Shown here piece after piece: positions 1-64,000 of a stretch of 64,000 nucleotides of DNA; position 1 is the first letter of the stretch; every line of letters begins with the position of its first letter. This DNA is from Thunnus maccoyii. Taxonomy: Eukaryota > Chordata > Actinopteri > Scombriformes > Scombridae. A program made the translations under genes and the position numbers. The notes under the pieces were generated by a model. That model ran no database searches. It saw nothing but the letters and a program-made list of their open reading frames with translations, and was not told the DNA's origin. The stretch spans positions 24,372,501 to 24,436,500 of the forward strand of contig NC_056540.1 in NCBI RefSeq assembly GCF_910596095.1. The letters are read 5' to 3'.

Positions 1-1469
1 AAAGTCCATATTGGGCTTAGGGGTCTGTACAGTAGTAGGCAGAAGACTGGTGAGACGCCATCTATCACAAAAGCCAAAGGTTCAAAAGGTGAAACAGGCC
101 CTATGGAGATAATGGAGCACTTGAGGGCATTTTCGTGAATTACGGCAACCCCACCACCTCGTGTGACCTGGATTGATGAAAATGAGAGTAGCCTGGAGGA
201 TTGGCTTCGGTGAGAGGGGAGGGGTCATCAGGGGTAAGCCATGTCTCAGTGATGAAAAAACAGTTTTGGGACATAATGACATCTTGACAGATAAATGATT
301 TGTTAGACAGCGATCTCACATTCAGCAGACCAAATTTGGAGGGAGGGAGGGAGGGAGGGAGGGAGGGAGGGAGTGTGTGGTGAGGATGGAACTATAGTGT
401 GTGTAATAGTAATAAGATTGTCATAATTTACTGAACAGGATACTGTGGGAACAGAATTATGGTGTCTGAGTGTTAGGCAGATTGGGATGTGATTAACAGG
501 TAGTTCAGCTGAATGTGAGTTTGACAGTCCATGCCCCATGAGTGGTAGGGGTAGATTTGGCCAGTTGAAATTTCACTCATAAAAGGGACCCTGCCAGTGG
601 ATTTATGGTGGCAGTGAACGTTATTTTGATTATTTTGGCAGTGAACATTATTTTGATCATGTGTGTGGATTACCTCATGGCGGCATGGACTGTCTCAGAC
701 CCTCTGACAGGCATTCTGAAGGTTAACCAATGCATAGTCAATTTTTCCAGAGAGCAATCTTGCCCCGTGTAGGTTGGATGGAGTCCGTTGGCTCTGTACA
801 GTTGGCTGTGGCATGTCCACGTTCATTCTGCTGCATCGGATTCTTGTTTCAGCTAGGTGTGCAGTGACAGCAAACGGGAAAACCAACCATAGCCCTGCCC
901 AAGGGACGGGATCGGACCAGAAATGAGGATGCGTTTCCCAGTGTCTTGAAGGGCAGAGATGAGCAGTTGGAAGTCAGCATGGAGGATTTCTGACTGTTGT
1001 TGGCTGATGTCATTTGATCCCACATGAATAACCAGGTTGGAGCAGTCTGGATGACATTCAAGGACAAAAGGCAGTTTATCACAAATGTCTTAAACACGGG
1101 CTCCAGGAAAGCAGAACATGTGGGCACCTTTGGCTCTGATGTTCCTTACCATGGAGATTCCGATAATCAGTGTTGAGGGGCGAGGCAGAGAAGGATATTG
1201 TAGCTGTGGTGGTGGCAGATCAGACTGGGGATGTACCTTGGTGCTCCAATTATTTTGCCTAGAGAGGCGAGACTGGGAATTCCCAGGCCTAGGCCCTTTC
1301 TCTTACAGCTAATCTGAGAATCTATGGATGTCCTCTTTGAGGTTAGTTATGTTTCTGTTCGCCTTCTGGAGCAGCTGGCAGTCTTCACAGGGCATTGTAG
1401 CTCCTGATCCAATCAGACTGTTGTGAGGGAGACGGATGTTAGCCTCACAAGTGGTAGACCACGACCAAG
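1..1469 (-). mobile_element. LINE fragment (endonuclease and SGNH-like segments)
   Basis: Degenerate non-LTR retrotransposon read on the minus strand. Around 1065-1020 the reverse strand encodes SNLVIHVGSNDI, and around 960-870 ISGPIPSLGRAMVGF, which resemble the SGNH-like segment found in some fish LINEs. Around 245-80 it encodes FITETWLTPDD followed by GYSHFHQS, typical of the apurinic-type endonuclease domain. The reverse transcriptase would lie off the left edge. Several frame changes break the reading, so the copy is dead. Its 5' end abuts intron sequence of the plus-strand NITR P0 near 1470. The exact LINE clade is not determined. Confidence 0.75.
339..373. repeat. (GGGA)n simple repeat
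   Basis: Nine consecutive GGGA-type units inside the LINE fragment, followed by a short GT-rich stretch. Confidence 0.9.
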
Positions 1470-1665
1470 TTAAAATCCCCCTCAATTCAAAAATGTGTGT
1501 TTCTTTTTCTTATTTCACTTGGACGTTGGACCTTCACTGTGCAGAATGATGTATATTTAGAGTTTGACATTCAAACACTGGTTTCACATTAATCTGCTGA
1601 AGTTGGAGAGTTTCTCCGTGCTCACTTTAAATCTGAGTTTAAAGGACATGGCTGGCCATTTTCTG
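1470..1665 (+). mobile_element. Short copy of the TTAA-bounded MITE family, P0 intron
   Basis: Starts with TTAAAATCCCCCTC and continues with the family core (GGACCTTCACTGTGCAGAATG). This is the short subtype also found directly after the membrane exon in P1, P2, P4 and P5, so it probably marks the P0 intron after a membrane exon that is now separated from it by the LINE. Confidence 0.55.
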
Positions 1666-1953
1666 GCCATGTGCAGAGACCAAACCAACAGTGAATTAAT
1701 CCCACTTACAAGTATTGTCTGTAGTTTCCAATGAGCAAAGCACTTCACCAGTGACTGTTCAGTGCTCAGGGGCCACAAAGGACTGAAGCTGGGCACATCA
1801 CAAGTGTGTAACTTTAAAACCAAGACCTTATCAATGTGATCATAGTCTTGTTTAGTTCATTTCTGTCTTTTAATGAGACACAAACACACTGATATGACAT
1901 GAGGAAACATATTCCCACTGTGAACACACTCAAGGTTTTGCTTTTATTAACAG

Positions 1954-2759
1954 GAGGAGCAAGAGCTTCTCATGATCTTGGACATGAAAAACCAACTGTG
2001 GAACAATCAAACGACCTGGTAATTATGCTTCTGGTAAATATGTGGTGGTGTATTTCCCTGATTTCACTGACTAGGTGTAGTGATCTTGAAGTGGGAGCGT
2101 GATGAATATTTTGCCCACTTTTTCCCTTTTCCTTAAGTAAAGTAAAGTGAGTTTACTGTTAAGTAACATAACGTTTGTTCCTATATGATAAACATGGATA
2201 AAGTCAAGAGTTATAAATACAAAATAGATCACTGAGAAATATGATAGAAATATTTTAAAATAAGTGTATGTATCTAAGACGATGTAAAATAATCAGATAT
2301 GTCATTATAGAAATATTATAGGAACATTATAAAGTGCATGAAATAAAGTAAATGAACAAGTGCACCAAATGATTTTAAGTCAGTACATGTTGATATTGCT
2401 CACATTTTTAATACAGTCCTGTTCAATAATATAACACATCTGCTGCTTTCATGACAGAGGAATGAATAATCAATAACACATTTCACATTTAGGCTAATGA
2501 CACTTATTAAATAAGTCACATAAGAAAGTAACTTTATTGTTTAGTTAATTATGTTACAGTTCTAATCTCTAAATTATTTATTAACACACAAATATCATAT
2601 TTTTTGCAGGATGGTCAAGCAAAGGCAGTGAATTATGCAGCGCTGGATTTCTCCAACATGAAAGTGAAAAGAGGGAATAAAATGAGGAGAGAGAACACAA
2701 AGTGTGTTTACTCTGATGTTAGATCAGATTACCACACCAAGCAACACCCCTCTCTATAG
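1954..2759 (+). CDS. NITR P0, 3' part: two cytoplasmic-tail exons
   Basis: Tail of a plus-strand NITR. The first exon (1954-2018, 65 nt, after an AACAG acceptor) encodes GARASHDLGHEKPTVEQSNDL; a second in-frame donor sits 15 bp downstream (exon end 2033). The terminal exon (2610-2759, after TTTTTGCAG) is 150 nt and ends in TAG. It carries VNYAAL, a canonical ITIM, and CVYSDV, an ITIM-like site. ITIMs recruit SH2-domain phosphatases, so an inhibitory role follows from the family. The leader, V, I and membrane exons are not seen: the LINE at 1-1469 lies where the membrane exon would be. They may be off the left edge or lost. The 65-nt tail exon matches P4 rather than P1/P2. Confidence 0.8.
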
Positions 2760-3516: not shown

Positions 3517-5331
3517 CTAAGCCCTGACAGTATTGTAGACACAATTTTCTTCTGCTGCTTTTGCATTCCTTCTCCCTGCTTTGCCAGCTTTCTTCTTGGT
3601 AAAGGTTACTGCAGAATAAACCAATGAGTCCTGATATCTCTGAGAAAATAAATCCCAAAATATTGTGAGATGGAAAGTCAATGTAAGGATGTGCAAACAG
3701 ATAAAACATGCTTTTCAAATTACATATTATCTTAAAATTCCTTACCTGCTGACTTTGTTGACCACCACTGGCTGTTTCAGCATTTGTTTGCAGAGCAACA
3801 ACAGCTGTATTATAAAATAATAATAATAATAACATGACTTATTCACAGCACTGATGTGAATCTAAAGATGTTATAGCTGTTATTAAATACTGTTTGATAG
3901 ATTAATGTTGAGTAATGAGTAATTTTTCTTACCGTTAAAACAATCACAAGATTTTCTCTTGATGCAATATATGAGGAAGGCTGTTACAATCAGACTTATA
4001 GCCAAAGCAGCACACAGCAGGTAGATAACTGTGTTGGCCTGCTGTAAATTCCACCTGCTGACAACTAAAGCATCATGAAAAAAAAATGAATAAAAGAAAC
4101 ATTTTAAGGTTAAGAGAAAGGAATAAGTAATTTATGGTATTTGATAAGATGATATGAAGAACAACAAATGTTTTTTGATAGTTGATCTAAATGTATTGTA
4201 ATTTACTCCCAAGAAAACACATACAAAGATGATCATTTACCTTCGATGTTGAGTTTTGTCGCATTTCCAAATAATATCTCTCCACATGTGGCCACAGCAC
4301 AGTAGTAAGTCCCAGCATCAGACGAGCTGACCTCCTTAGAGAAGCTGTAGAAACATTTCTGTGGAGAGCGAGTCTCAGGACTCTTTTCACATTCATCACC
4401 ACTGTTTCCATGAGCGTAAATAAAACTGGGATGAGATTCATCTGATCCAGCTCTGAACCAGTACACTCTGTGTTCTTCTGGACACCTTTTATTCTCAGAG
4501 TCAGGGAGCATTGAACACTGGAGAGTCACAGAGTCTCCTGGATGGACTGGATCAGATGGAAAGTTTTGAGTGATGACAGTGATATCAAGTTCTGGTCCTG
4601 GGGAAGTGAAAATACAAATTATGAACATGTTTTACTCACTTTAATGAAAAAAATTACACACATTCATTCATATATGAAGAACACTTTCTTATAAACTACG
4701 GAAACATTAAAATGTAAATATGTAAACTGCTGTTATAAATGGTGTTGAATGTAAGCAGACAAGCTGATGATTACATATAAGGAACGTGAAATCTTTGCTT
4801 GCTGACTTTTATTTACCTTTAATCCTCAGAAATGCTCCTTTTAATAATGTCATGTTAAGGCGGTCTACTTTTATACAGTAATAAAGACCAGCATCGCTTA
4901 GCTTAGCTTTATTAATATCCAGAACAAATGTTCCAGGCTCTTGTTTTGTTGCAATGCGAGTAGTCTTATTAACACCAACGTAATCAAAATCATATGTTCC
5001 TCCCAAGAATTCAGGTATATTTCCAGCAACAAGCCTGATCCAGAACAAGGTTGTTGCTTTTAACTCAGATGTCTGGCGGATACATGTCAGGGTCACATTA
5101 TCTCCAACATCAACAGTCTTTGTCACAAAGATCTGATCGTCTGTGCATCCTGAAAAAAAGATAAAAATAAACACAGAACAATAATGAACAACAGACAGAT
5201 AAAATCATATATGCTTTCTGCTAAATTGCTCCAAGAAGATGACAATATAATTGAAATATCCAGAGTGAAGCTGACTTTTTATACTTACGCCCAACTCTGA
5301 GCACGAGCAAGATATAAAATCCAAACAGCAT
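3517..5331 (-). CDS. Novel immune-type receptor, gene A (six exons)
   Basis: Type I membrane receptor of the NITR family, predicted on lymphoid cells. Exons on the minus strand: leader 5331-5289 (MLFGFYILLVLRVG), V domain 5149-4817, I domain 4597-4241, membrane 4064-3933, short tail exon 3804-3746, terminal exon 3639-3517. Phases agree and the sum is 1047 nt (348 aa plus stop). The V domain has LTC, WIRL and DAGLYYC; the I domain has LQC, VYWFRAGS, DAGTYYC and the J-like CGEILFG. The span (VIYLLCAALAISLIV) has no charged residue, which fits an inhibitory rather than adaptor-coupled receptor. The tail holds LVYSAV (ITIM) and CVYNTV (ITIM-like). Oddity: the J-like motif reads FGNATK where the other minus-strand copies have FGNGTK, replacing the conserved glycine. 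Expression not shown. Confidence 0.88.
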
Positions 5332-12825: not shown

Positions 12826-15800
12826 ATGATCCGACGACTGGCTGCTTTGATTCTTCTTACTGCAGTGTGTAAGTACAATTCTCATCAGATGTGAAAAACC
12901 ATTTAATCGGAGCAGTCTGTGATAAAGATGCATATGAGACAAGGCCTTGTAAAAATGTGCATTTTTCACTGTTTTCATGCTGTTGTCTAGTGAATCTTTT
13001 TTGTTTTTCTTCAGCTCTGATTCAGACTGCAGAGGTTCATCACCTGATCTCTTTGACTTTGGTTGAACTTGGTGACAATGTTACTTTTCAATGTCCATTC
13101 TCTGAGAATGACAACTTCATTCATTGGTATAAGCAGTCTCTTGGACATATGGGCCAAACAGTCGCTTCTGGACTCATCGGCACAGTAACAGTCAGTGACC
13201 AATTCAAAGAGTCTCGTTTCACTGTCACAAAAGAGGATGCTCAGTATTCTCTCATCATCAGAAATGTAAGCAAAGAGGATGAAGCAACATATTTCTGTCA
13301 GAAAGGAACATCATTTTCACCGACTTTCGTCAATGGCACATTCTTGATTGTGAACGGTAAAAATAATATGTGCCTTATTTTAATGATCATTTACGTTTTG
13401 AAGTCATTCAAATAATTTAGATTGTAAATTCCTTTTGTTGCGTTTCTTTTTAATGTTGTTTTACTGAATCACACAGACAACAATCAGCAGAAATCAGTCT
13501 ATGTGAAACAAAGTCCGGAGACAGCATCAGTCCAGCTGGGAGACGCACTGACTCTCCAATGTTCACTGCTCTCCAAGAACACAACAGAAAACACAGATCA
13601 GTGTCCAGGTGTACACAGTGTGTACTGGTTCAGAGCTGGATCAGGAGGATTTCATCCAGGCATCATTTACACTCACAGGAACAGGAGTGATAAACCTGTG
13701 GAGAGGGGCTGTGTCTACAGTCTGTCCAAAACTATACAGGACTCCTCTGATACTGGGACTTACTACTGTGCTGTGGTCACATGTGGAGAGATCCTGTTTG
13801 GTGAAGGAACTAAAGTGGATACAAGTATGTATTTACAGTTGTATTTAAATCATAAATAGATTTTGCATAAATATATTCAGCCTGCTTAAAATATATTAGA
13901 TTTTGGCTTTTTAAAAATGTATCATTAGTTTGTTGCTTTCTCCAAAGTTTAAAGTCCCCCTCCACTCAAAAATATGTTCTTCTTCTTGTTAATTCAACTG
14001 GATGTTTGAATGTTAGCATGCAGAATGATGTATGTGCAGACTTGTTGTGATTTTACAACTAGTTTGGAAGCCAATTCTGGTCCAGTTTGTATCTTACACA
14101 AGTGTAGTGTAGAAACTTGAAGCCTTTGGTGCACATACACTAAGAATTGACTCTTTGGAAAAGTTGGAAACATCTTGCGTCCAGTAGTTGAGCCTTTGAA
14201 ATGAACAATATTTACATATTCATAGATTTTGAATTTTAAATAAGGGAGAAGGAGTATATGTCATTACAAAAATTTTAATTAGGTATTTTTTATACTTCTT
14301 AAAATTTTTAAGAAGGTTTCATAGAGCCCTATTTTAACTTCACAAGTGCAACAACAAGTGCAGTGTGGTAGGTCTTGGGTGCACTGACTGTGTGGGCGTC
14401 TTCATGCACACGTGCTATTTTGGTTTATGTGTGTGCAGCAGCACCAAGTGCAAAAAGGCTGGGTGAGGGTGAATAAAGATCAGTTGGTGTGGTGATTATT
14501 AAATACTCTCTCAGCCAGTCACATTCAATGTCTTAGCTCAGAAACAGCTGTGCCAATCACAGTTAAGCATGATAATGAGAGATGAACAAAGGGAAAACTT
14601 TTCTTCAGGAAATGTCTGCGCCACACCATGAACACTCATCACCACAAATCTGCAGCCAAAGACAGATGGTGTAGGATTCTTCATCAGTTAGTTAGGCTAC
14701 TATGATAGTGATAGAAATGAAAACAAAAAAATTGGTGAAGACGTTTATATGATTGAATCGGACCAACACTATTTCATCCATAATTCTAATCAAATTCCAA
14801 CCAAAATAAAACAACTTGCTTTATGCTCCTTCATTTGAATGAAACTCACACCTGTGCACCATGTGTTCTGCCACACAGACAGGTAAAGTGAGTTTCAAGG
14901 TCAGGAAAATACCAAACAGTCGGAGCATGATGCGAAAAGTCAACAAAATCTAATCATTATCCCATTATGTAAGTTTGTCATTCAGAAATATTGAAAAAGG
15001 ATTAATTCATCCATAAATAATACTTCATGCATACATTGCATTTCACCCAAAACTCAAATAAAATAAGATCATACTTTTGACTAAATACTATAAATATTCT
15101 AGTAAACATGCACATAGAAAGTAAAAGTAAAAAGAGTAAAATACCTAACAGTTGTTCCAACAGTAATTCAACAGTTATTTAGATTGTTGACAAAATGTAA
15201 TTATTCTCACTCAGTTTCTAATAGCAAATGATTACTCTTGACAGTCCATTAATAAATAATGTTTAATGTGTCCTTGGAAATATTTTGGTTCCAGGATCAG
15301 AGTTGGATCCAGTTGTTCTTGTACTTGGAGCACTGTTGGCCTGCTGTGTGACTGTGATTGCCGTCCTTATTTTCTACGTTAATGGGAGGAGAGTTTGTGA
15401 ACATTGCAACGGTAGGTTCACTATATTTTACTTTTTTGTTTCAGTTAAACTTTCCTCCACTCAAAATGTGTTTTGCTTTTTCTTACTTCATTTGGATGTT
15501 AGACCTTCACTGTGCAGAATGATGTATGTGCAGAGTTTGACACTCAAATGCTGGTTTCACATTCATCTGTTGAAGTGGGAGAGTTTCTCTGTGCTCACCT
15601 TAAATCTGAGTTGAAAGGACATGGCTGGTCATTTTATATATCTGTCTTATTGTCAACAATTTACATGCACAGAGACCAAACCAACAATGAATTAATCCCA
15701 CAGTATTGTCTGTGTATCCGAATCCTATTCATCTGTGCTGTAGACTTCCATCGTATCCAAAAACTATTAAAAACATATCAATGAGCCACACTGCTGCATG

Positions 15801-17215
15801 GTGACATGTTTAATCATTATGAAGAGTTTGGACACAGTAGTTTGTTCAGAAATGGCTCCAAAGACTAATAACAGCATCTTCAGTGAGTGTTAGATGTTGC
15901 TTTTTCATTGTTTGTCACTATTACAATTAAAAAGTGTCAAAATAAAATTCATCTTTGTGAACATTATTTTTTGTAGTGTTACAATATTGTAAACGTTTAA
16001 GAAGCGAACCATTTTATGAGGTCACTATAAAATATTTATATTTTTGTCAAATTATATTAATTTCCCAAACTAGCTTCTACCAAAGAATGGTTAGAGCAGA
16101 AGAAAGATAATGTTTTGGAATGGTCGAGTCAAAGTCCTGACCTTAATCCTAAAGAAATGCTGTGGAAGGACCTGAAGCAGGCAGTTCATGCAAAGACACC
16201 CACCAACACTCCTGAATTGAGACTATTTTGTAAGGAGGAATGGGCTAAAATTCCTCCAAGCAAATGTGCAGAGCTGATAAACAGTTACTGGAAACGAAAG
16301 TTATTGTTGCAAAAAAGGGTCACAACAGTTACTGAAAGCAAGGGTTCACATAATTTTGCCTCCTACAAATATGTAAGTTTGGATAATTTTCCTTAATAGA
16401 TAAAAGTTTTTTCTTTGTCTCATTTGTTTAATTGGGTTCACTTTATCTAATTTTAGGACTTGTGTAAATATCTGATCATGTTTTAGGTCATATTTATGCA
16501 GAAATACAGAAAAATCTAAAGGGTTCACAAATTTTCAAGCAGCACTGTATATGTGTATTGAACATTTCAGTTCACATTTTACATGATGTCACAATCCAGT
16601 TTTCAATGAGCAAAGCACTTCACTAGTGTCTGCTCAGTGCTCAGGGGCCACAAGGGACTGAAGCTGGGCACATCACAAGTGTGTAACTGTAAAACGAAGA
16701 CCTTATGAATGTGATCAAAGTCTTGTTTTGTTCATTTCTGTTTTTTAATGACACAAAGTTCCCTGATATGACATCAGTAAACATATTACCACTGTGAACA
16801 CACTCAAAGTTTTACTTTTATTAACAGGAGCAGCAGGAGCCTCTCATAATCTTGAAACATCAACGGTGGATCAATCAAACAACCTGGTAATTATGCTTCT
16901 GGTAAATATTCATGACAGAGGAATGAATAATCAATAACACACATGTAGGCTAATGACACTGATTAAATAGGCCATCTAAGAGAGTAACTTTATTGTTTAG
17001 GTAATGATGTTATGGTTGTAATCTCTACATTATTTAATAACACACAAATACTTTATGTTTTATAGGATGGTGAAGCAAAGGAAGTGAACTATGCAGCGCT
17101 GGATTTACCCACAATTAAAGTGAAAAGAGGAAATAAAATGAGGAGGGAGAACACACAGTGTGTTTACTCTATTGTTAGATCAGATTACCACAACCAGCAA
17201 CACCCCTCTCTATAG
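12826..17215 (+). CDS. Novel immune-type receptor, gene P1 (six exons)
   Basis: Second NITR type of the array. Exons: leader 12826-12868 (MIRRLAALILLTAV), V 13015-13356, I 13477-13824, membrane 15295-15411, tail 16828-16886 and terminal 17066-17215; total 1059 nt, 352 aa plus stop. V domain: FQC, HWYKQ, ATYFCQKG and a J-like FVNGTFL. I domain: LQC, VYWFRAGS, TGTYYC and CGEILFGEGTK. The span ALLACCVTVIAVLIF lacks charged residues. The tail has VNYAAL (ITIM) and CVYSIV. Compared with gene A its I domain lacks the cysteine of the DECEK segment. The fifth exon has two in-frame donors 15 bp apart. The long fourth intron holds a MITE and a Tc1/mariner fragment. Ends 720 bp from the end of gene B, convergent. 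Confidence 0.88.
13949..14325 (+). mobile_element. MITE copy in P1 intron after the I exon
   Basis: Starts TTTAAAGTCCCCCTCCACTC; the right end is degenerate, so the end coordinate is approximate. Confidence 0.5.
15445..15640 (+). mobile_element. Short MITE copy after the P1 membrane exon
   Basis: Begins TTAAACTTTCCTCCACTC 33 bp after the membrane-exon donor. Reading frames across it are intron read-through, not coding. Confidence 0.5.
16073..16549 (+). mobile_element. Tc1/mariner 3' fragment in P1 intron
   Basis: Encodes the C-terminal part of a Tc1-type transposase: QSPDLNPKEMLW at 16130-16165, the region of the third acidic residue of the DDE triad, then WKRKLL near 16295. The right end, TTCAAGCAGCACTGTA, matches a terminal inverted repeat of this group. 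The 5' part with the first two catalytic aspartates is missing. A copy at the same place in P2 shows that it predates that duplication. Confidence 0.8.
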
Positions 17216-17934: not shown

Positions 17935-19682
17935 CTAAGCCCTGACAGTATTGTAGACAGAATTTTCTTCTGCTGCTTTTGCATTCCTTCTCCCTGCTTT
18001 GCCAGCTTTCTTCTTGGTAAAGGTTACTGCAGAATAAACCAATGACTTCTCATATCTCTGAGGAAATAAATCCAAAATATTGTGAGATGGTAAGTCAATG
18101 TAAGGATGTGCAAACAGATAAAACATGCTTTTCAAATTACATATTATCTTTAAATTCCTTACCTGCTGACTTTGTTGACCACCACTGGCTGTTTCAGCAT
18201 TTGTTTGCAGAGAAACAGCAGCTGTATTATAAAATAATAATAATATGACTTATACACAGCTCTGATGTCAATCTAAAGATGTTATAGCTGTTTTTAAATA
18301 CTGTTTGATAGATTAATGTCTCAGTAATTTCTCTTACCGTTCCAGCAATCACAAGATTTTCTCTTGATGCGATATATGAGGAAGGCTGTTACAACCAGAT
18401 TTATAGCCAAAGCAGCACACAGCAGGTAGATAATTGTGTTGGCCTTTTGTAAATTCCACCAGCTGACAACTAAAGCATTATGAAAAAAAGAAATAAAATA
18501 AATAATTTAAGGTTACGAAATAGCAATAACTAATTTACGGTATTTGATAAGAAGAAGAACAAATGTTTTTTGATCTAAATGGATTGTACTTAACTCCTAA
18601 TAAAACACATAGATAGGATAATTTCACCATTATAGAGAAATGAAGTTACCTTCAATGTCCAGTTTAGTTCCATTTCCAAATACTATCTCCCCACATGTGG
18701 CCACAGCACAGTAGTAAGTCCCAGCATCAGAAGAGCTGACGTTCTTAGAGAAGCTGTAGACACATTTCTGTGGAGAGCGAGTCTCAGAACTCTTTTCACA
18801 TTCATCACCACTGTTTCCATGAGCGTAAATAAAACTGGGATGAGATTCATCTGATCCAGCTCTGAACCAGTACACTGTGTCTTCTTCTGGACACTTTTTA
18901 TTCTCAGAGTCAGAGAGCACTGAACACTGGAGAGTCACAGAGTCTCCTGGACGGACTGGATCAGATGGAAAGTCTTGAGTGATGACAGTGATATCAAGTT
19001 CTGGTCCTGGGGAAGTGAAAATACAAATTATGAACATGTTTTACTCACTTTAATGAAAACAGTTACACACATTCATTTATACACGAAAACTGCTGTTATA
19101 AATGGTATTGAATGTAAGCAGATAAGCTGATGATTACATATAAGGAACATGAAATCTTCGCTCACTGACTTTTATTTACCTTTAATCCTCAGAAATGTTC
19201 CTTTCAATAATGTCATGTTAAGTAGGTCTACTTTTATACAGTAATAAAGTCCAGCATCGCTTAGCTTAGCTTTATTAATATCCAGGACAAATTTTCCAGG
19301 CTCTTGTTTTGTTGTAATGTGAGTAATCTTATTAACACGATCATGATCAAAGGCATATGTTCCTCCCAAGAATTCAGGTACATTTCCAGCAACAAGCCTG
19401 ATCCAGAACAAGGTGGTTGCTCCAGACTCAGATGTCTGACGGGTACATGTCAGAGTCACATCATCTCCAACATCAACAGTCTTTGTCACAAAGATCTGAT
19501 CGTCTGCACATCCTGAAAAAAAAGACACAGAGCAATAATAAACAACAGACAGATAAAATCATATATGCTTTCTGCTGAATTGCTTCAACAAGATGACAAT
19601 ATAATTGATATATCCAGAGTGAAGACTTTTTATACTTACGCCCAACTCTGAGCATGAGCAAGATATAAAATCCAAACAGCAT
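17935..19682 (-). CDS. Novel immune-type receptor, gene B (six exons)
   Basis: Best-preserved minus-strand copy. Exons: leader 19682-19640, V 19512-19180, I 19006-18650, membrane 18469-18338, tail 18221-18163, terminal 18057-17935; 348 aa plus stop, all exon lengths equal to gene A. V domain keeps LTC, WIRL and DAGLYYC; I domain keeps LQC, VYWFRAGS, DAGTYYC and FGNGTK. The tail carries two canonical ITIMs, LVYSAV and SVYNTV; B is the only minus-strand copy with serine rather than cysteine at position -2 of the second. A lysine-rich linker joins them. No charged residue in the span. Most likely a functional inhibitory receptor; ligand unknown, as for nearly all NITRs. Confidence 0.9.
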
Positions 19683-27235: not shown

Positions 27236-27286
27236 AGATTATGGCCTTTTAAGAATGTATTATTAGTTTGTTGCTTTCTCCAAAGT

Positions 27287-37290: not shown

Positions 37291-37304
37291 TTTATTTTTT
37301 GCAG

Positions 37305-46206: not shown

Positions 46207-49200
46207 ATGATCCGACATCTGGCTGCTTTGATTCTTCTTACTGTAGTGTGTAAGTACAATTCTCATTACATGTGAAAAACCATTTAGTCTGAGCAGTCTG
46301 TGATAGTAATTCATATGAGACAAGGCCTTGTAAAAATTTACATTTTTCATTGTTTTAGTGCTGTTGTCTAGTAAGTCTCTTTTGTTTTTCTTCAGCTGTG
46401 ATTCAAACTGCAGAGGTTCCTCACCTGATCCCTTTGATTTTGGTTGAACCTGGTGACAATGTTACTTTTCGATGTCCATTTTCTGACAACGACAAATTCT
46501 TTACCTGGTATAAGCAGCCTCTTGGACATATGGGCCAAACAGTCGCTTCTGGACTTGTTGGCAAAATAACAGTCACTGAACAATTTAAGTCACATTTCAC
46601 AGTCGCAAAAGGGGATGCTCAGTATTCTCTCATCATAAGAAATGTAAGCAAAGAGGATGAAGCAACATATTTCTGTCAGAAAGGAATGTCATATTCACAG
46701 ACATTCGTCAATGGCACATTCTTGGCTGTGAACGGTAAAAATAATTTCTGCCTTATGTCAATGATCTTTTAACTTTTTACGACATTCAAATAATTTAGAT
46801 TGTGAATTCCTTTTGTTGTGTTTTTTAATATTGTTTTACTGAATCACACAGACAACAATCAGCAGAAATCAGTCTATGTGAAACAAAGTCCGGAGACAGC
46901 ATCAGTCCAGCTGGGAGACGCACTGACTTTCCAATGTTCACTGCTCTCCAAGAACACAACAGAAAACACAGATCGGTGTCCAGGTGAACACAGTGTGTAC
47001 TGGTTCAGAGCTGGATCAGGAGGATTTCATCCAGGCGTCATTTACATTCACAGGAACAGGAGTGATGAACATGTGAAAAGGAGCTGTGTCTACAGTCTGT
47101 CCAAAACTATACAGGACTCCTCTGATACTGGGACTTACTACTGTGCTGTGGTCACATGTGGAGAAATCCTGTTTGGTGAAGGAACTAAAGTGGACACAAG
47201 TATGTATGTACACTTGTATTTAAATCATAAATAGATTTTGCATAAATATATTCAGCCTGGTTAAAATATATTAGATTTTGGCTTTTTAAGAATGTATTAT
47301 TAGTTTGTTGCTTTCTCCAAAGTTTAAATTTCCCCTCCACTCAAAAATATGTTCTTCTTCTCGTTATGTCAGTTGGATGTTTGAACGTTGCATGCAAAAT
47401 GATATACGTGCAGACTTCTTGTGACATTACAACTAGTTTGGAAGCCAATTCTGGTCCAGTTTGTATCTTACACAAGTGTGATGTGTAAACTTGAAACCTT
47501 GAGTGCAAATACACTGACAACATCTTGTATCCAGCAGTTGAACTTTTGAAATGAACATTATTTGCATATTCATAGATTCTGGATTCTTAAAGGGATATTT
47601 TACATTTTCTGAAGTGGGGTTGTATGAAGTATTTGGTAGGTAGGTGTGAGGTATCCACAGTCAGTGTATAATCTGCAGTAGATGGCGGTCCATAACCCCC
47701 AATTTGGGGTGAACAACCATCCACTGCAGGTATTACACTGACTGTAGATATGTACCTCATACAACCCCACTTCAACAAATGTTAAGTATCCCTTTAATGA
47801 GGGAGAAGGAGTAGATGTTATTTCAAGGATTTCAATGAGGTATTTTTTATATTTCTTAAAATATGTCTGAAGGGGATTTCTAAGAAGGTGTCTTCGAGCC
47901 CTACTTTAACCACACAAGTGCAACAACAAGTGCAGTATTGTAGGTCTTTGGGTGCACTGACTGTGTGGGCGTCTTCATGCTCACCTGCTGTTTTGGTTCA
48001 TGAATGTGCAACAGCACCAAGTGCACAATGGCTGGGTGAAGGTAAATAAAGATCAGTTGGTGTAGTGATTATTAAATACTTTCTCAGCCGGTCACATTCA
48101 TGCTCTCAGCTCTGAAACAGCTGTGCCAATCACAGTTAAGCATGATAATGAGAGATGAACAAAGGGAAAACTTTTCTTCAGGAAATGTCTGCGCCACAGC
48201 ATGAACACACATCACCACAAATATGCAGCCAAACACAGATGGTTTAGGATTTTATATCAGTTGGTTAGGCTACTATAATAATGATAGAAAAGGTGATGAA
48301 GGTGTTTATATGAATGCATCAGATCGACATTATTTCAGCTATAATTCTAATCAAATTCCAACCAAAATAGAACAAAACGCTTTGTGCTCCTTCATTTGAA
48401 TGAACCTCACACCTGTTTGCAACTCTCCTACAAACTCTGCCACACAGACGGGCAAAGTGAGTTCAAAGGTCAAAGGTCAGGAAAATACCAAACAGTCGGA
48501 GTGCTGCTTACGCTAGAGTTCTGCACAGGTCCAATTTTGCAAACCTGCCCACACCCACAAAGCTCAGAACCATAACTTACTTGTTACCCGCAATTATCTC
48601 ATGTCAAGTCCGGACCCGCCCGGACCCGTAATTAAAAGACCTGTGAAACGACGCAACCCGCGATTAAACACATAGGCTACACAGTCACTCGCTTTAAAGT
48701 GCTTTATTTTTACTCGTTGCGTAATCATTATCTGTGTCTCTGCAAGAGGGTCAGTACCACACAATCACTATATTCCACACATGCTGGTGCACACACAGAT
48801 ACACAGTTGCAGATACCATGGCCCTCTCTCTCTCCTTCTCTCTCTCTCTCTTTCTTTCTCACATACACACACTCTTAACAATGATTGCATATACTAATGT
48901 ATTAATGACTGCTCGTTACACAACGTTTTTGCAGGTTACCCATCAGGTACCTGTGGCTACCCAACCTGGTGCAGGACTCTGGCTTATGCTGGTCTTTGCA
49001 TCTCCTGAAAAATAGGGCCCGGTATTTTCGTGTTAATAAAAACATGATGCCAATAGTAAACAAAATTTCAATAATTATCCGATTGTGTAAGTTTGTTATT
49101 CAGAAATACTGAAAAAGGATTAATTCAACCATAAGACATGCTTTTTGTAGAAAGTTATGTCATTTATTTGATTTCAAATTGCATTTTTATTGTAAATCAA

Positions 49201-51346
49201 ACTGTGTTTATCAGCATTTGTCAAGTCTTTTGCCCAAAACTCAAATAATACTCAAGAGGATACTTTTGACTAAATACTGTAAAAATAATTAACAGTCATT
49301 CCAACGGTAATTTAGATTTTTGACAAAATGTAATTAATATCACTCAGTTTCTAATAGCAAATGATTACTCCTGACAGTCCAATAATAAATAATGTTAAAT
49401 GTCTCTGTGGAATTTTTTTGATTCCAGGATCAAAGTTTGATCCAGTTGTCATTCTACTTGGAGCGCTGTTGGCCTGCTGTGTGACTGTGATTGTAGTCCT
49501 CATTTTCTACATTAATGGGAGGAGAGTTTGTGACCATTGCAACGGTAGGTTCACCATATTTTACTTTTTTGTTTCAGTTAAACTTTCCTCCACTCAAAAA
49601 CATGTTTTGCTTTTTGTTGCTTCACTTGGATGTTGGACCTTCACTGTGCAGAATGAGGTATGTGCAGAGTTTGACACTCAAATGCTGGTTTCACATTAAT
49701 CTGCTGAAGTTGGAGAGTTTCTCTGTGAACACCTTGAATCTGAGTTTAAAGGACATGGCTGGCCATTTTCTATATTTGTCTTATTGTCAACAAATGACAT
49801 GCACAGAGACCTCACCAACAATGAATTAATCCCACTTACAAGTATTGTCTGTGTATCTGAATCCTATTCCTCTGTGCCATAGACCTCCATAGTTATCCAA
49901 AAAATATTAAAAACATGTGAATGAGCCATACTGTTGCACTGGATGACATGTTTATTCATTATAAAGATTTTGGACACGATAGTTTGTTCAGAAATGGCCC
50001 CAAAGACTAATAACAGTGTCATCAATGAGTGGTTAGATGCTGATTTTTCATTGTTGGTCACTATTACAATTAAAAAGTGTCAGAATAAGATCAGAAAGAT
50101 CAGATCAGAAAAAAAAATTCATTTTTTTTGTTACAATTTTGTAAACATTTAAGTAGTGGACCATTTTATGAGTTCACTATAGAGTATTTATATTTCTAAT
50201 TATATCAATTTCCCAAACTAGCTTGTAACTTCCATTGTCTGATGAATGTTCATCATGTGAATGATGAGTAAATCTTTTTATATATGTGTAATGAACTTTT
50301 AAGTTCACATGTTACATGACATTACAGTCTAGTTTCTAATGAGCAAAGCTCTTCACCAGTGACTACTCAGTGCTCAGGGGCCACAAGGGACTGAAGCTGG
50401 GCACATCACAAGTGTTTAACTGTAATACCACAACCTTATCAATGTGATCAAATTCTTTTTTGTTCATTTCTGTCTTTTAATGAGACACAAATACACTGAT
50501 ATGACATCAGTAAACATTCCCACTGTGTACACACTCAAGGTTTTGCTTTTATTAACAGGAGCAACAGGAGCTTCTCATGATCTTGGACATGAAAAACCAA
50601 CTGTGGAACAATCAAACAACCTGGTAATTATGCTTCTGGTAAATATGTGTGTTGCCCTGTTTGCACTGGCTAAATCCAGGAGGTATAAAGCAAACTTTAA
50701 TAAATTCACTGTTAAGTGACACAAATGTTTGTTATTATATGATAAAAAAAATGGATAAAGTCCAGAAGTATAAATATAAAAAAATATAAATATAAATATA
50801 TAAAAGATCAGTGAGAAATATCAAAGGAATATTTTAAAAGAAGTGTGTTAAGCTCTCTTAGGCAATGTAAATAATCAGATATGTCACTATATAAATATTA
50901 TAGTAACATTATTAAGGGCCAAAAATAATAAAGTAAATGAACAAGTGTACCAGATTGTTTAGTAAGTCAGCTCTTTATTATATTGTTTCCACCTGCATAT
51001 TGCTCACATTTTCAATGCAGTTGTGTCCAATAATATAACACATCTGCTGCTTTCATGACAGAAGAATGAATAATCAATAACACATTTCACATTTAGGCTA
51101 ATGACACTAATTAAATAAACCACCCAAGGAAATAACTTTATTGTTTACTATCTCCAAAATTTAATAACACACAAACATTATGATATTTCTTCGCAGGATG
51201 GTGAAGCAAAGGTAGTGAACTATGCAGCGCTGGATTTTTCCACAAGTAAAGTAAAAAGAGGGAATAAGAAGAGGAGAGAGTACACACAGTGTGTATACTC
51301 TGATGTTACATCAGATTACCACACTCAGCAAATCCCCTCTCTTTAG
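46207..51346 (+). CDS. Novel immune-type receptor, gene P4 (six exons)
   Basis: Exons: leader 46207-46249 (MIRHLAALILLTVV), V 46396-46734, I 46852-47199, membrane 49428-49544, tail 50559-50623, terminal 51197-51346; total 1062 nt, 353 aa plus stop. V domain has FRC, TWYKQ, ATYFCQKG and FVNGTFL, one codon shorter than P1 (FKSHF against FKESRF). I domain has FQC, VYWFRAGS, TGTYYC and FGEGTK. Span ALLACCVTVIVVLIF is uncharged. The tail ends with VNYAAL, a canonical ITIM, and CVYSDV. The 65-nt tail exon and its GHEKPTVEQ peptide match P0. Introns hold a MITE inside a MITE and a hAT element. Best-preserved plus-strand gene with P1. Confidence 0.9.
47324..47884 (+). mobile_element. MITE copy in P4 intron, interrupted
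   Basis: Left TTTAAATTTCCCCTCCACTC, right CTGAAGGGGATTTC; carries a second MITE inside. Confidence 0.5.
47591..47793. mobile_element. 203-bp palindromic MITE flanked by TTAA
   Basis: Inverted ends of about 35 bp (AGGGATA...GAAGTGGGGTTGTATGA on the left, its near complement on the right), TTAA at 47587-47590 and 47794-47797. P1 has a plain TTTTAAATAAGGG at this place, consistent with insertion at TTAA, the piggyBac target. Confidence 0.75.
48514..48981. mobile_element. Non-autonomous hAT-like element in P4 intron
   Basis: Ends TAGAGTTCTGCAC and GTGCAGGACTCTG (complement CAGAGTCCTGCAC); flanks GCTTACGC (48506-48513) and GCTTATGC (48982-48989). P5 at about 61905 has the empty site CTGCTTACATTGGTC. 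Includes a CT-rich microsatellite. Confidence 0.7.
48824..48872. repeat. (CT)n microsatellite
   Basis: CTCTCT run with interruptions followed by a short CA run, inside the hAT-like element. Confidence 0.85.
49578..49775 (+). mobile_element. Short MITE copy after the P4 membrane exon
   Basis: Begins TTAAACTTTCCTCCACTC, as in P1. Confidence 0.5.
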
Positions 51347-51921: not shown

Positions 51922-53841
51922 TCATTCCTGTTTTTGAAGTAAATAAAAGACATTGGTGAAGACACAATTTTCCTCCCTTGTTTTTGCATTCCTTTTCCCT
52001 GCTTTGCCAGTTGTCTTCTTGGTTGGTGCAGAATAAACCAAATAGTCCTCATATATCTGAGGAAATAAATCATGCATGTCAATATAAGAAGGTGCAAACA
52101 GACAAAACATGCTGAAAACTTTTTGAGTGACATCTTATCTTTAAATTCCTTACCTGCTGACCACCACTGGCTGTTTCAGCATGTGTTTGCAGAGCGGCGG
52201 CAGCTTTATTATAAAAATAATTATTATAATTTACACAAGAAAATAATGATAAATAATCAGCAACACAGGCTTCATTGGTTTTACTTTACTGGAAATGAAT
52301 GTTCCAGTAATATGACTTATACACAACTCTAATGTGAATCTAAAGATGTTACAGTTTTTATCAAATACTGTTTGAAAGATTGATGTCTGAGTAATTTCTC
52401 TTACCGTTACAACAATCACAAGATTTGTTCTTGATGCGATATATGAGGAAGGCAACCAGACTTATAGCCAAAGCAGCACACAGCAGAGAGATAACTGTGT
52501 TGGCCTTCTGTAAATCCCAACTGCTGACAACTGAAGTTTTATGAAAAGAAGGAAATTAGTCAACGTTATGAAAAAGTAATAAATCATTTTGGTATTATGA
52601 TAAGATGATGTTACATGAAAAACACATTTATTTGATAGTTAATCTAAATGGATTGTACTTGACTCCTGATAAAACACACACAAATATGATCATTTCACCA
52701 AAATTAATTTACCTTCAGTGTTGAGTTTTGTTCCATTTCCAAATAATATCTCTCCACATGTGGCCACAGCACAGTAGTAAGTCCCAGCATCAGAGGAGCT
52801 GACCTCCTTAGAGAAGCTGTAGACACATTTCTGTGGAGAGCGAGTCTCAGGACTCTTTTCACATTCATCACCACTGTTTCCATGAGCGTAAATAAAACTG
52901 GGATGAGATTCATCTGATCCAGCTCTGAACCAGTACACTCTGTGTTCTTCTGGACACTTTTTATTCTCAGAGTCAGAGAGCACTGAACACTGGAGAGTCA
53001 CAGAGTCTCCTGGATGGACTGGATCAGATGGAAAGACTTGAGTGATGGCAGTGATATCAGGTTCTGGTCCTGGGGAAATGAAAATACAAATTATGAACAT
53101 GTTTTACTCACTTTAATGAAAACAGTTACACACCTTCATTCTTATACGAAGAACACTTTCATATAATCTATGGAAACATAAAAATGTAAATATGTAAACT
53201 GTTTTTATAAATGGTGTTGAATGTAAGCAGATGAGCTGATGATTACGTTAAGGAACGTGAAATATTTGCTTGCTGATTTTTACTTACCTTCAATCCTCAG
53301 AAATGTTCCGTTCAAAAATGTCAAATGACGTTGGTTTACTTTTATACAGTAATAAAGTCCAGTATCACTTAGCTTAGTTTTATCAATATGCAGGACAAAT
53401 GTCCCAGGCTCTTGTTTTGCTGTAATGCCATTAGTCTTATCAACACCATCATAATCAAAGGCTAATGTTCCTCCCAAGAATTCAGGTACGTTTCCAGAAA
53501 CAAGCCTGATCCAGAACAAGGTTGTTGTTTCAGACTCAGCTCTCTGGCGGATACATGTCAGAGTCACATTATCTCCAACACCAACAGTCTTTGTCACAAA
53601 GATCTGATTGTCCTCCTGCACATCTCTCCACTCTCCTCCCTGTCATCCTGATTGTCATCCTGAGAAAAAGATAAAAATAAACACAGAGCAATAATAAACA
53701 ACATATATAGAATCATATATGCTTTCTGCTAAATTGCTGCAAGAAGATAACAGTATAACTGAAATATATCTGGAGTAAAGCTGACTTTATATACTTACGC
53801 CCAACTCTGAGCATGAGCAGGATATAAAATCCAAACAGCAT
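51922..53841 (-). pseudogene. NITR gene E: V exon disrupted, tail motifs lost
   Basis: Exons by homology: leader 53841-53799, V 53659-53288, I 53069-52713, membrane 52530-52405, tail 52203-52154, terminal 52056-51922. Compared with gene D, 44 nt replace 5 nt near the start of the V exon (net +39). From the normal acceptor the second codon of the exon is TGA (53657-53655), with another TGA soon after. Internal AGs such as that ending at about 53634 would keep the frame open but lack a pyrimidine tract. The membrane and tail exons have in-frame losses of 6 and 9 nt. The terminal exon reads LVYSAP and CVFTNV and runs on to LLQKQE; the second tyrosine is phenylalanine. Probably a pseudogene, though the I domain is pristine (FGNGTK). 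Confidence 0.82.
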
Positions 53842-59531: not shown

Positions 59532-59934
59532 CAAGCATCAATCAAGCTGGGAGATGCACTGACTCTCCAATGTTCACTGCTCTCCAAGAACACAACAGAA
59601 AACACAGATCGGTGTCCAGGTGAACACATCGTGTACTGGTTTAGAGCTGGATCAGGAGGATTTCATCCAGGCATCATTTACACTCACAGGAAGAGGAGTG
59701 ATGAACGTGTGGAAAAGAGCTGTGTTTACAGTCTGTCCAAAACTATGCAGGACTCCTCTGATACTGGGACTTACTACTGTGCTGTGGTCACATGTGGAGA
59801 AATCCTGTTTGGTGAAGGAACTAAAGTGGACACAAGTATGTATTTACACTTGTATTCAAATCATAAATGGACTTTGCATAAATATATTTAGCCTGGTGAA
59901 AATAAATTAGATTTGGCCTTTTAACCCTCCTGTT

Positions 59935-60880
59935 ATGTTCCGGGTCAAATTGACCCGTTTTAAAGTTTGAAAATCTAGGAAAAATAGTTAAAAGTATTTT
60001 TTCAGTATGAAACTTCTTCTGCTTGCCTTAATTAGTGTAATCAACATATAATATGAAAATGGTTCATCTCACATATCTGCAACCACCCCCTGCATGTTTA
60101 TATCACATAGATACTGTTTGGGTCAATTTGACCCAGCAGTCAAACTGGAGGTAAAAGGGTGTCAGAAATGTCAGACTATTTTTTTCTTTGCAACTGTGAG
60201 ACATATTTCATCCCAATCACTCACACACACACACACACAGAGCACACGCACACACACACACACAGGTGCAGGTGTTATGATATTTGACGAGAACCATTTA
60301 TGTTCTCGCGGGAAAACTCCACCCACATTCAGTGGACACTCAACAGGGGAGGGGCAAAACATATAAAAGATTCTCTGCATGGGAGTCCTACCAACATTAC
60401 ACTCTGTCAGGCAAACCTTTACAAAATGAGCAGCAGAAACAAAAGGATGACAGTCCAGGAGGCTCTGGAAGTCATCATTGATCATGACAGTGAAATGGAG
60501 GGGGATGTGTCTGAAGATGAAGACCATCTTGAGCTAAATTCTGATTCTAATGATTCTGATTTTGAACCAGATGAGGGAATTGCTATTCCTATTCCTCCAA
60601 GCAAGACATTCATGTCAAAAAATGGTGAAATACAGCTGACGATGTCAAGACAAGCATGACCTGTGTGAAATGTGCAAAATTCATTTGCACAAAGCACAGT
60701 GTGGTGACATGTCACTCGTGTGCTGTGTAGATGTACAGAGGTAATGGTCCTAATTGAACCATTACCTGTTAGAGGTAAGGAACACCATTGCACTAAATAT
60801 TGATAGAATAGTTAGTAATGGAGTTAGTAATGAAATATTCACACTGCTTGTTAGGATTTTTTTGGTTTCGGATATCTTTT
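59935..60880 (+). mobile_element. piggyBac-like relic in P5 intron
   Basis: Left end at the target TTAA (59931-59934) followed by CCCTCCTGTTATG, a CCC-starting terminus, and nested GGGTCAAATTGACCC palindromes. A frame from ATG 60426 to TAA/TGA at 60659 begins MSSRNKRMTVQEAL and is rich in Asp, Glu and Ser, as in the N-terminal region of piggyBac transposases. The catalytic domain is absent. No right terminal repeat was found, so the end is approximate. Confidence 0.7.
60221..60264. repeat. (AC)n microsatellite
   Basis: ACACAC runs interrupted near 60240-60248, inside the piggyBac-like relic. Confidence 0.9.
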
Positions 60881-60905
60881 GGATTAGTTTGTTGCTTGCC
60901 AGAGT

Positions 60906-61260
60906 TTAAATTCCCCCTCCACTCAAAAATATGTTCTTCTTCCTGCTACTTCAGTTGGATGTTTGAACATTAGCGTGCAGAATGATGTATGTGCAGACTT
61001 CTTGTGACTATACAACCAGTTTGGAAGCCAATTCTGGTCCAGTTTGTATCCTACACAAGTGTGATGTGGAAATTTGAAACCTGAGTACAAATACCCTGAG
61101 AAGATCTTGTGTCCAGCAGTTGAACTTTTTAAATGAATAATATTTGCATATTCATAGATTATGAGTGGATTATAGAGATTAAAAGGGAGAAGGAGTAGAT
61201 GTCATTTCAAGGACTTTAATGAGGTATTTTTCATATTTCTTAAAATTTTTAAGAAAGTGT
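60906..61260 (+). mobile_element. MITE copy in P5 intron
   Basis: Begins TTTAAATTCCCCCTCCACTC; equivalent to 13949 in P1 and 47324 in P4. Confidence 0.5.
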
Positions 61261-62546
61261 CTTAGGGCCCTACTTTAACTGCACAAGTGTAACAACAAAT
61301 GCAGCATGGTAGGTCTTGGGTACACTGACTGTGTGGGCGTCTTCATGCACATGTGCTGTTTTGGTTCATGAATGTCCAGCATCGCCAAGTGCAAAAAGGC
61401 TGGGTGAAGAGATGAATACAAATCAATGGGTGTGGTGATTATTAAATACTCTCTTGGCCAGTCACATTCATGGTCTCAGCTCTGAAACAGTTGTGCCAGT
61501 CAAAATTAAGCATGATAATGACAGCTGAACAAAGGGAAAGCTTTTCTTCAGGAAATATCTGCGACAAACCATGAACACACAAATCTGCAGCCAAAGACAG
61601 AGGGTGTAGGGTTTTTTATATGTTAGTTAGGCTGCTATAATAATGTTAAAATAAAAAAAGTAAAAAATTCAATTTGGTGAAGTTGTTAATATGACTGCAT
61701 TGAACTGACATTATTTCAGCCATATTCTAATCAAATTCAAACCAACATAAAACAATTCGCTTTGCGCTCCTTCATTTGAATGAACCTCACACCTGTTTGC
61801 ACCTCTCCTCCCGTCTCAGCACCATGTGCTGTGCCACACAGACGGGCAAACCAGTTTCAAGGTCAGGAAAATACCAAACAGTCAGAAATAACAGTCGGAG
61901 CGCTGCTTACATTGGTCTTTGCATCTCCACAAAAATATGGTGCAGTGTCTTAGTGTTAATAAAAATACGATGCCAAAAGTCAACAAAATCTAATAATTAT
62001 CTCATTATATAAGTTTGTCATTCATACACATTGAAAAGGGATTAATTCATCCATAGTAAATACTTCATGCATGCATTGTTTTTTGCTTGTATCAATTGCA
62101 AATTTCACTTATAAATCAAACTGTGTTTATTAGCATTTGTCAAGTCTTTTGCCCAAAACTCAAACAAAAGAAGATGATACTTTTGACTAAATACTATAAA
62201 TATTCTAGTAAACATGCACATAGAAAGTAAAAGTCAAAAGAGTGAAATACCTAACAGTTATTCCAGCAGTAATTCAACAGTTATTTATATTGTTGACAAA
62301 ATGCAATTAATGTCATTCAATTTCTAATAGCAAATGATTACTCCTGACAGTCCATTAATAAATAATGTTTAATGTCTCTGGAAATTTTTTGGTTCCAGGA
62401 TCAGAGTTTGATCCAGTTGTCCTTGTACTTGGAGCACTGTTGGCCTGCTGTGTGACTGTGATTGCCGTCCTAATTTTCTACATTAATGGGAGGAGAGTGT
62501 GTGACCATTGCAACGGTAGGTTCACCATATTTTTTTTTTGTTTCAG

Positions 62547-62745
62547 TTAAAGTCCCCTCCACTCAAAATGTGTTTTGCTTTTTGTTGTTTCACTTGGATG
62601 TTGGACCTTCACTGTGCAGAATGATGTATGTGCAGAGTTTGACACTCAAATGCTGGTTTCACATGAATCTGATGAAGTTGGAGAGTTTCTCTGTGCTCAC
62701 CTTAAATCTGAGTTTAAAGGACATGGCTGGCCATTTTATATATTT
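62547..62745 (+). mobile_element. Short MITE copy after the P5 membrane exon
   Basis: Begins TTAAAGTCCCCTCCACTC. All copies at this place share the same right truncation. Confidence 0.5.
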
Positions 62746-63576
62746 GTCTTATTGTCAACAATTTACATGCACAGAGACCAAACCAACAATGAATTAATCC
62801 CACTTACAAGTATTGTCTGTGTATCCGAATCCTATTCCTCTGTGCCGTAGACCTCCATCGTATCCAAAAACTATTAAAAACATGTCAGTGAGTCACACTG
62901 TTGCACTGGATGACATGTTTATTCCTTATGAAGTTTGGACACGGTAGTTTGTTCAGAAATGGCTCCAAACACTAATAACAGCGTCTTCAGTGAGTGGTTA
63001 GATGTTGATTTTTCATTGTTTGTCACTATTAGAATTAAAAAGTGTCAGAATAAAATAAATCATTGTGAACATTTTTTTTATAGTGTTACAACATTGTAAA
63101 CTTTTAAGAAGTGAACCATTTCATGAGGTCACTATAGCGTATTTATATTTTTGTCAAATTACATTAATTTCCAAAGCTAGCTTGTAACTTCCATCTTCTG
63201 ATGAATGTTCATCACGTGAATGATGATTGAATCCTTGTATATATGTGTAATGAACATTTAAGTTCACATGTTACATGATGTCAAAATCTAGTTTCCAATG
63301 AGCAAAGATCTTCACCAGTGACTGCTCAGTGCTCAGGGGCCACAAGGGCCATAGCTGGGTACATCACAAGTGTGTAACTGTAAAACCACAACGTTATCAA
63401 TGTGATCAAAGTCTTGTTTTTTTCATTTCTGTTTTAATGAGACACAAGCACACTGATATGACATCAGGAAACATATTCCCACTGTGAATACACTGAAAGT
63501 TTTGCTTTTATTAAGAGGAGCAGCAAGAGCTTCTCATAATCTTGAAAAATCAACTGTGGATCAATCAAATTATCTG

Positions 63577-64000
63577 GTAATTATGCTTCTGGTAAATATG
63601 TGGTGGTGTGTTGCCCTGTTTGCACTGGCTAGGTGTAGTGATCTTGATGAAAGTGTTTAATGAATATTTTGCCAACTTTTTCCCTTTTTTCCGAGAAAAA
63701 TCAGATCCAGAAGGTACAAAGTAAAATAAAATAAATTCACTGTTAAGCGACATAATGTTTTTACTACATGATAAACCAGAGGTATAAATACAAAATAGGT
63801 CACTGAGAAATATAGAAATATATTTAAATAAGTGTGTTAAGCTCTCTAAGACAATGTAAATGATCCCGTATGTCACTATAGAAATATTATAAAAACATTA
63901 TAAAGTGCAAGAAATAATAAAGTAAATGAACAAGTGAACCAAATGATTTTAATAAGTCAGAACTTGTTGATATTGTTTCCACCTGCAGTCCTGTTCAATA
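63577..64000. other. P5 intron running to the window edge
   Basis: Aligns with the P0 intron at 2019-2450. No exon in the visible part. Confidence 0.6.

Follow-up and report, generated by a model that had tools for sequence, protein, structure and literature searches.

A large NITR cluster of Thunnus maccoyii with an array of convergent gene pairs and mosaic copies

Results

Alternating NITR-type copies in the window and its flanks

NITRs are regarded as fish equivalents of the mammalian natural killer (NK) receptors, and they show how fast sets of innate receptors turn over. We analyzed a stretch of 64,000 nt from Thunnus maccoyii (GCF_910596095.1, NC_056540.1:24,372,501-24,436,500; contig C8 in our analysis), referred to here as the window. 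This window very probably represents the middle of a large NITR cluster, in which a convergent couple of genes was amplified as a block and exons were exchanged among paralogs. The window was translated in six frames and its exons were used as tblastn queries; flanks of 150 kb on the left side and 100 kb on the right side were also read. All coordinates are relative to the window start unless a contig is named.

The searches located NITR-type copies on both strands. The five on the minus strand (type A, A1-A5) all have V, I, membrane and tail exons; the six on the plus strand (type B, B0-B5) are in variable states. Gene structure and gene order were read directly from the DNA. The last tail exon (C2) lies at 3520, 17938, 31377, 38203 and 51949 in type A. 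In type B it lies at 2610, 17066, 30467, 37313, 51197 and 64167, the last of these just beyond the window end. These positions bear out an initial annotation, made from the letters alone, that five minus-strand and six plus-strand copies alternate and are tail to tail throughout. The spacing from C2 to C2 is 14.4, 13.4, 6.8 and 13.7 kb in type A and 14.5, 13.4, 6.8, 13.9 and 13.0 kb in type B, in agreement with the duplicon length given there (13.4-14.4 kb, and 6.8 kb where a plus-strand copy, P3, was described as collapsed). Self-comparison of the window, a check proposed with that annotation, revealed direct repeats at offsets of about 13-14.5 kb. Among 97 self-matches of at least 200 bases, three were inverted: two are LINE (long interspersed nuclear element) pieces, and one, 68.6% alike, is between two I exons. 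We rejected inverted duplication of a single gene as the source of the alternation, both on this count and because the V domains of A1 and B1 are 25% identical.

Together with the flanks, the array comprises 16 tail-to-tail plus/minus pairs between about -101 and +87 kb (approximately 190 kb), and the matches to the last tail exons within a pair are 175-812 bases apart in all 16. The 32 genes alternate strictly in strand. When 16 plus and 16 minus genes were shuffled 200,000 times, 30 runs were never reached, a figure that counts against random order only, as tandem duplication of a pair yields alternation by itself. After the 16 pairs there is one further minus copy at 95 kb, where a B tail was not detected. 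To the left of the pair block, 24 of 26 I-domain loci are on the minus strand; to the right, five plus loci are followed by five minus loci, with a further convergent junction at 130.9/133.4 kb.

Duplicated blocks and co-inheritance of the pairs

The first three pairs of the window are 91-96% alike over long stretches, and the other pairs are more diverged. A second unit of duplication is visible to the left of the window: a block of 24 kb whose four genes form a long pair and a short pair. Within the region from -78 to -17 kb, some 13 kb of sequence reappear 24.0 kb away (96.7% identity) and 47.9 kb away (95.3%), and a companion stretch of 7.4 kb recurs at the 24.0-kb offset with 96.6% identity. 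These duplicated blocks are direct observations.

We used Mantel tests (1000 permutations) to compare distances among B genes with distances among their neighbors. The B membrane exons followed the convergent A partner (rho 0.66-0.68, p 0.007-0.009, n=11), as against rho 0.33-0.38 (p 0.065-0.119) for the divergent neighbor. For the V and I exons of B (n=8), the correlation with the convergent partner was 0.54-0.57 (p 0.06-0.085). Shifting these exons to the gene on the other side gave values that were no worse (rho 0.63, p 0.023 with the back part of A; rho 0.48, p 0.105 with the A V exon). For the interval between the tails, correlations are only weak, both with the A V exon (rho 0.15) and with the B V and I exons (rho 0.18). 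There is thus moderate support for a pair inherited together as a block and blurred by exchange. The proposal that the convergent pair is the unit of duplication holds to this extent, but the pair is not the sole unit, given the recurrent four-gene block.

Half of the B copies (8 of 16) retain V, I, membrane and C2 exons, one of them (at -14.5 kb) with a shortened tail frame; V is missing from the other eight. Every one of the 17 minus copies in the block has matches to all four exon classes, although at least four of them carry damage, namely A3 and A5 in the window and two copies with a stop in the I exon, at -31.6 and 95 kb. The 6.8-kb unit consisting of A3, LINE fragments and the C2 exon of B3 (31195..37396) is colinear, at about 86-90% identity, with the segments from -62.5 to -56.0 and from -38.5 to -32.1 kb. 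These three short units share the LINE pieces and the truncation point of the B copy, save for a difference of about 65 bases beside that point, and the two other pairs lie 93 and 69 kb away. We therefore rejected an independent collapse of B3. The shared truncation point also means that the eight decayed B copies trace to about six lesions, so the collapse of P3 (B3 here) and the repeated decay, as described initially, are partly wrong.

Mosaic copies and a less diverged I exon

Two main types are present, as had been described, but a third V type and chimeras occur as well. In the three leftmost pairs the minus genes combine the third V type (C) with an A-like tail, and the third of these also has an A-like start of the I exon. 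These mosaic copies are observed directly. At 66, 80 and 96 kb there are copies whose V exons are 65-68% identical to that of A1 and whose I exons are 88-90% identical. A5 diverges from A4 by 0-6% through leader, V and I, and then by 26-32% in the intron between the I and membrane exons, where its divergence from a C-V gene is 19%. Its C1-C2 exons are nearer to that C-V gene (3-13%) than to A4 (9-16%). By these alignments, A5 reads as a chimera in which an A head is joined to another tail.

Among the 14 A genes, mean divergence is 10-18% in the V exon and its flanks. It is 15-18% in the V-I intron, drops to 4-7% within the I exon and climbs back to 10-18% in the intron that follows. At fourfold sites, I diverges by 5.3% and V by 9.2% in 12 A genes; the two omitted A genes have stops in I. 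The corresponding values for eight B genes are 2.3% and 9.2%, with V exceeding I in 26 of 28 gene pairs, which are not independent of each other. Gene conversion of the I exon, or head exchange at the I exon, would explain its low divergence; an alternative explanation is constraint on silent sites. Some observations count against exchange among paralogs. The membrane exon of A5 is equally near to A4 and to the C-V genes, the intron divergence among A genes may be inflated by poly-T stretches, and at fourfold sites no more than 38 of 66 type A gene pairs have a higher divergence in V than in I.

The mean ratio of nonsynonymous to synonymous divergence (dN/dS) is 0.59 (A) and 0.53 (B) for V exons and 0.76 (A) and 0.65 (B) for I exons. 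For membrane and tail exons it is 1.35 and 1.13 in A, where silent changes are few, and 0.52 and 0.79 in B. We claim no positive selection from these values.

Growth of the array

Unequal exchange that amplified the convergent couple as a block is the most likely explanation. The array would have started from an ancestral plus-strand gene adjoining a minus-strand gene, tail to tail. Unequal exchange between repeats could then have amplified this couple head to tail, as pairs and also as the four-gene block. Exchange may also have shifted head exons (leader and V) and tail exons among paralogs and kept the I exons alike. Both the exchange mechanism and the order of exchanges are what we infer from the copies. 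Alternation, as a trace of block duplication, does not require selection. A readable record of how the array grew and was reshuffled would then be left in the pair blocks, in the mosaics and in the differing divergence of V and I exons.

Convergent 3' ends

An unlikely alternative to passive block duplication is that selection keeps the strict pairing, with overlapping 3' ends and antisense transcripts making each pair a regulatory unit that chooses which inhibitory receptor is displayed. Poly(A) hexamers of both strands are present in the convergent intervals of the window (2760-3516 between B0 and A1, 17216-17934, 30617-31376, 37454-38196 and 51347-51948), and their placement allows overlap of the 3' ends in four of the five. 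Across the array, 3'-end overlap is predicted in nine of the 11 pairs examined (of 16), where a minus hexamer comes before the first plus hexamer past the B stop. The gap between tail exons stays within 175-812 bases in every pair, and pair members tend to be co-inherited. However, one of the 11 pairs has the opposite hexamer order and one has no minus hexamer, and in two of the nine the A tail exon is the sole place where a plus hexamer is found. Such hexamers occur often in AT-rich DNA, and nine is a raw count. In addition, V is missing from half of the B partners, and no B tail was detected for the copy at 95 kb.

A bolder idea, which we regard as quite improbable, combines this regulation with exon exchange. 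The convergent pair would be a heritable cassette with antisense-limited co-expression, amplified at least 16 times, and the homogenized I exon would anchor the exchange of leader-V heads and tails. If true, the array would act in the germline as a generator of new receptor combinations. Antisense control lends itself to a direct test, given the convergent 3' ends.

Integrity of the assembly

It is very unlikely that the array is an assembly artefact made of haplotype copies or misjoined repeats. Tandem repeat loci are a known trouble for assemblers, and herring NITR loci vary in copy number (PMC11088111). A few blocks (the heads of A4 and A5; 140-154 kb) are 97.8-98.2% identical and, taken alone, could be allelic. 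However, the 264 kb counted contain no N, and the copies carry their own lesions and insertions. The listed blocks (at least 0.9 kb, kept if at least 88% identical or longer than 2.5 kb) are 86.8-98.2% identical, most of them too diverged and too uneven for alleles. The scarcity of inverted self-matches speaks against a palindromic misjoin.

Family identity and genome-wide distribution

We take the A and B genes to be NITRs, as had been proposed. This identity rests on structure and chromosomal linkage, both of which support it. The gene models predict an immunoglobulin (Ig) ectodomain of V and I domains and one membrane segment, as in a type I receptor, and the V and I exons of A1 and B1 (four tested) all pass the Pfam V-set cut-off. 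Six cysteines mark NITR I domains in the medaka study (PMC2442602), and the type A I domain has six in all five window copies. The I domains have J-like ends, FGNGTKLDI in A2 and A3 (with variants in A1, A4 and A5) and FGEGTKVDT in B; the J-like ends of the V domains are looser than FGXGTXLXV.

We searched 782 Mb of the genome in 54 contigs for I domains, scoring 150 of 190 candidates with the A query and all 145 with the B query. The A query gave at least 123 matches and the B query 121, all of them at 24.07-24.53 Mb of C8 or at 5.66-6.24 Mb of contig C22. They join into 62 loci on C8 (16 plus and 46 minus; both searches) and 60 on C22 (C22:5662549-6235456; 5 plus and 55 minus; A search alone). 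This gives about 122 I-domain loci on two chromosomes, a count of exons that includes weak, partial and broken ones. Open frames of at least 236 aa, as if V and I were in one exon, were found for 45 of 61 matches on C22 and for two of 62 on C8. In the medaka study, chromosomes 18 and 10 show the same split into one-exon and two-exon genes and are linked to menin and CSTF2, respectively (PMC2442602). The one CSTF2 match is on C8, and menin is on C22.

Several points count against NITR identity. The linkage is loose: the distance to the clusters is 3.2 Mb for CSTF2 and about 4 Mb for menin. The type B I domain has five of the six cysteines in the three window copies with an I exon, the third being absent; medaka NITR23, an accepted NITR, likewise has no third cysteine (PMC2442602). 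PDB searches with V and with an I-domain profile returned antibodies, T-cell receptors and other V domains, with no NITR among the matches listed (60 of 609, 5419 and 1364); the searches cannot separate fish Ig families. The structure predicted for the A V exon, of low confidence (mean predicted local distance difference test score, pLDDT, of 61), matched the general V fold, and we gave it no weight.

Membership in a different family of fish Ig receptors (NILT, LITR, CD8-like or T-cell receptor V genes, judged by their features only) is extremely improbable: single V and I domains do match a general V-set model, but the V and I domains with J-like ends, the six-exon plan, the linkage and the chromosomal split into two-exon and one-exon genes are all medaka NITR features.

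Comparison with known NITR clusters

The medaka cluster on chromosome 10 resembles the present one in having separate V and I exons, the order leader (L), V, I, membrane (TM), C1 and C2, a six-cysteine I domain with a J-like end, tails with immunoreceptor tyrosine-based inhibition motifs (ITIMs) and linkage to CSTF2 (PMC2442602). It has 10 genes, compared with the 62 I-domain loci found here, and repeated convergent pairs are not described in the parts of that study considered. The same source reports two zebrafish clusters with the same linked genes but with 3 and 36 genes on chromosomes 14 and 7, and totals of 44 NITR genes in medaka and 39 in zebrafish. Herring chromosome 6 likewise has a large NITR array in a type of region with copy number variation (PMC11088111); a pair structure is not described in the passages considered.

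The family is known; what appears new to us is how large the set is, how far the strict pair array extends, and the mosaics. Neither these features nor a tail-to-tail pair arrangement of NITRs turned up in the open-licence literature searched, and we do not claim that the arrangement is unpublished. A sea bass study by Ferraresso from 2009 reportedly deals, going by its title, with recurrent expansion and diversification of an NITR cluster.

Gene models and the state of individual copies

Both types share a plan of six exons, L-V-I-TM-C1-C2, with intron phases 1-1-1-1-0, and complete open models span 341-354 aa. Splice sites, leaders and the small C1 exons were located by comparing copies; a revised set of splice models covers the five type A copies of the window, and an alignment of ten B introns yielded the likely C1 exon of type B. 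A short segment that follows the B membrane exon was rejected as C1, being a piece of a repeat found all over the region.

Six of the 11 window copies are intact, two are damaged and three are remnants. The intact type A genes, all on the minus strand and 348 aa long, are A1, A2 and A4. A1 (3517..5331) consists of L 5289-5331, V 4817-5149, I 4241-4597, TM 3933-4064, C1 3746-3804 and C2 3517-3639. A2 (17935..19682) consists of L 19640-19682, V 19180-19512, I 18650-19006, TM 18338-18469, C1 18163-18221 and C2 17935-18057. A4 (38197..40846) consists of L 40804-40846, V 40332-40664, I 39757-40113, TM 39426-39557, C1 38426-38484 and C2 38197-38319, with a transposon in the TM-C1 intron. A3 (31377..33157, minus) is damaged: L, V and I are open, and the TM splice donor near 31756 was not found. 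The chimeric A5 (51949..53841, minus) is also damaged, with an A4-like head and a C1-C2 tail closer to that of the C-V genes on the left flank. At the 5' edge, its V exon has extra bases that lead to a stop after 15 aa with the normal acceptor; an alternative V acceptor could keep a 348-aa frame.

B1 and B4 are the only type B copies complete inside the window. B1 (12826..17215, plus, 352 aa, intact) consists of L 12826-12868, V 13015-13356, I 13477-13824, TM 15295-15411, C1 16828-16886 and C2 17066-17215. B4 (46207..51346, plus, 353 aa, intact) consists of L 46207-46249, V 46396-46734, I 46852-47199, TM 49428-49544, C1 50559-50623 and C2 51197-51346. The initial annotation counted B0 (1..2759, plus) among the copies, and its 3' part is indeed in the window (C1 1954-2018, C2 2610-2759), but L, V, I and TM lie outside, at -5192 to -2604; the whole model is intact and encodes 352 aa. 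The remnants are also on the plus strand. B2 (27229..30616) retains TM 28677-28792 (donor lost), C1 30224-30282 and C2 30467-30616, and has lost L, V and I; about 1.28 kb are deleted, and the joint lies at 27229-27235. B3 (37275..37453) is a C2 exon with LINE-like sequence before it, and its truncation point coincides with that of two B copies, at -56.1 and -32.2 kb. B5 (59534..63576) retains an I exon without its 5' part (59535-59835), TM 62399-62515 and C1 63518-63576, with C2 outside at 64167; L and V are gone with a deletion of about 0.97 kb.

The tail motifs LVYSAV/SVYNTV and VNYAAL/CVYSDV had been assigned to types A and B. Within the window, the complete LVYSAV/SVYNTV form is found in A2 only. 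A1 has LVYSAV/CVYNTV, and A3-A5 begin with LVYSAP, followed by CVYNTV in A3, CVYTTV in A4 and CVFTNV in A5, where the second tyrosine is lost. The B1 tail reads VNYAAL/CVYSIV. The features of inhibitory forms, an ITIM or ITIM-like tail and a membrane segment without a mid-membrane charge, are found in A1, A2, B0, B1 and B4. With these features, most intact copies should be inhibitory receptors of lymphocytes or NK-like cells, a function taken from the family.

Outside the window, two minus copies of the third V type at -96 to -82 kb (L009 and L010) have a membrane segment about eight residues short (LIFLLCAALALSLVVKKK), perhaps too short to span the membrane. Tandem minus copies with a fourth V type (L026-L028, +140.5 to +154 kb; 97.8-98.2% identity) are among the most similar duplicates; three have V, and a fourth extends past the stretch read.

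Repeats, transposons and other V-set arrays

The transposon in the TM-C1 intron of A4 (38593-39390), which we take to be hAT-like, has the ends TAGGGATGCA and TGCATCCCTA and an 8-base target duplication (TATCAAAC). A transposase end, presumably Tc1-like, occurs in the TM-C1 intron of B copies at 16061-16393 and 29449-29781; the first of these was scanned and matched Pfam DDE_3 below the cut-off. Pieces of LINE-like reverse transcriptase at 6393-7962, 20745-22324, 36028-37291 (minus) and 58453-58932 (minus) are part of the duplicated units, and four of the LINE-like frames tested matched Pfam RVT_1, one with a score under the curated cut-off. Throughout the array there is a short repeat resembling TTAAAGTCCCCCTCCACTCAAAAATGT (for example at 13961, 15456, 27299, 49589 and 62558), which mimics an exon with splice sites beside the B membrane exon. 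Elsewhere in the genome, other dense V-set arrays were found among the best 150 of 2761 candidates at C15:2.35-2.88 Mb, C12:32.07-32.68 Mb, C16:10.57-10.73 Mb and C18:12.01-12.05 Mb, and are perhaps immunoglobulin, T-cell receptor or other Ig-family loci.

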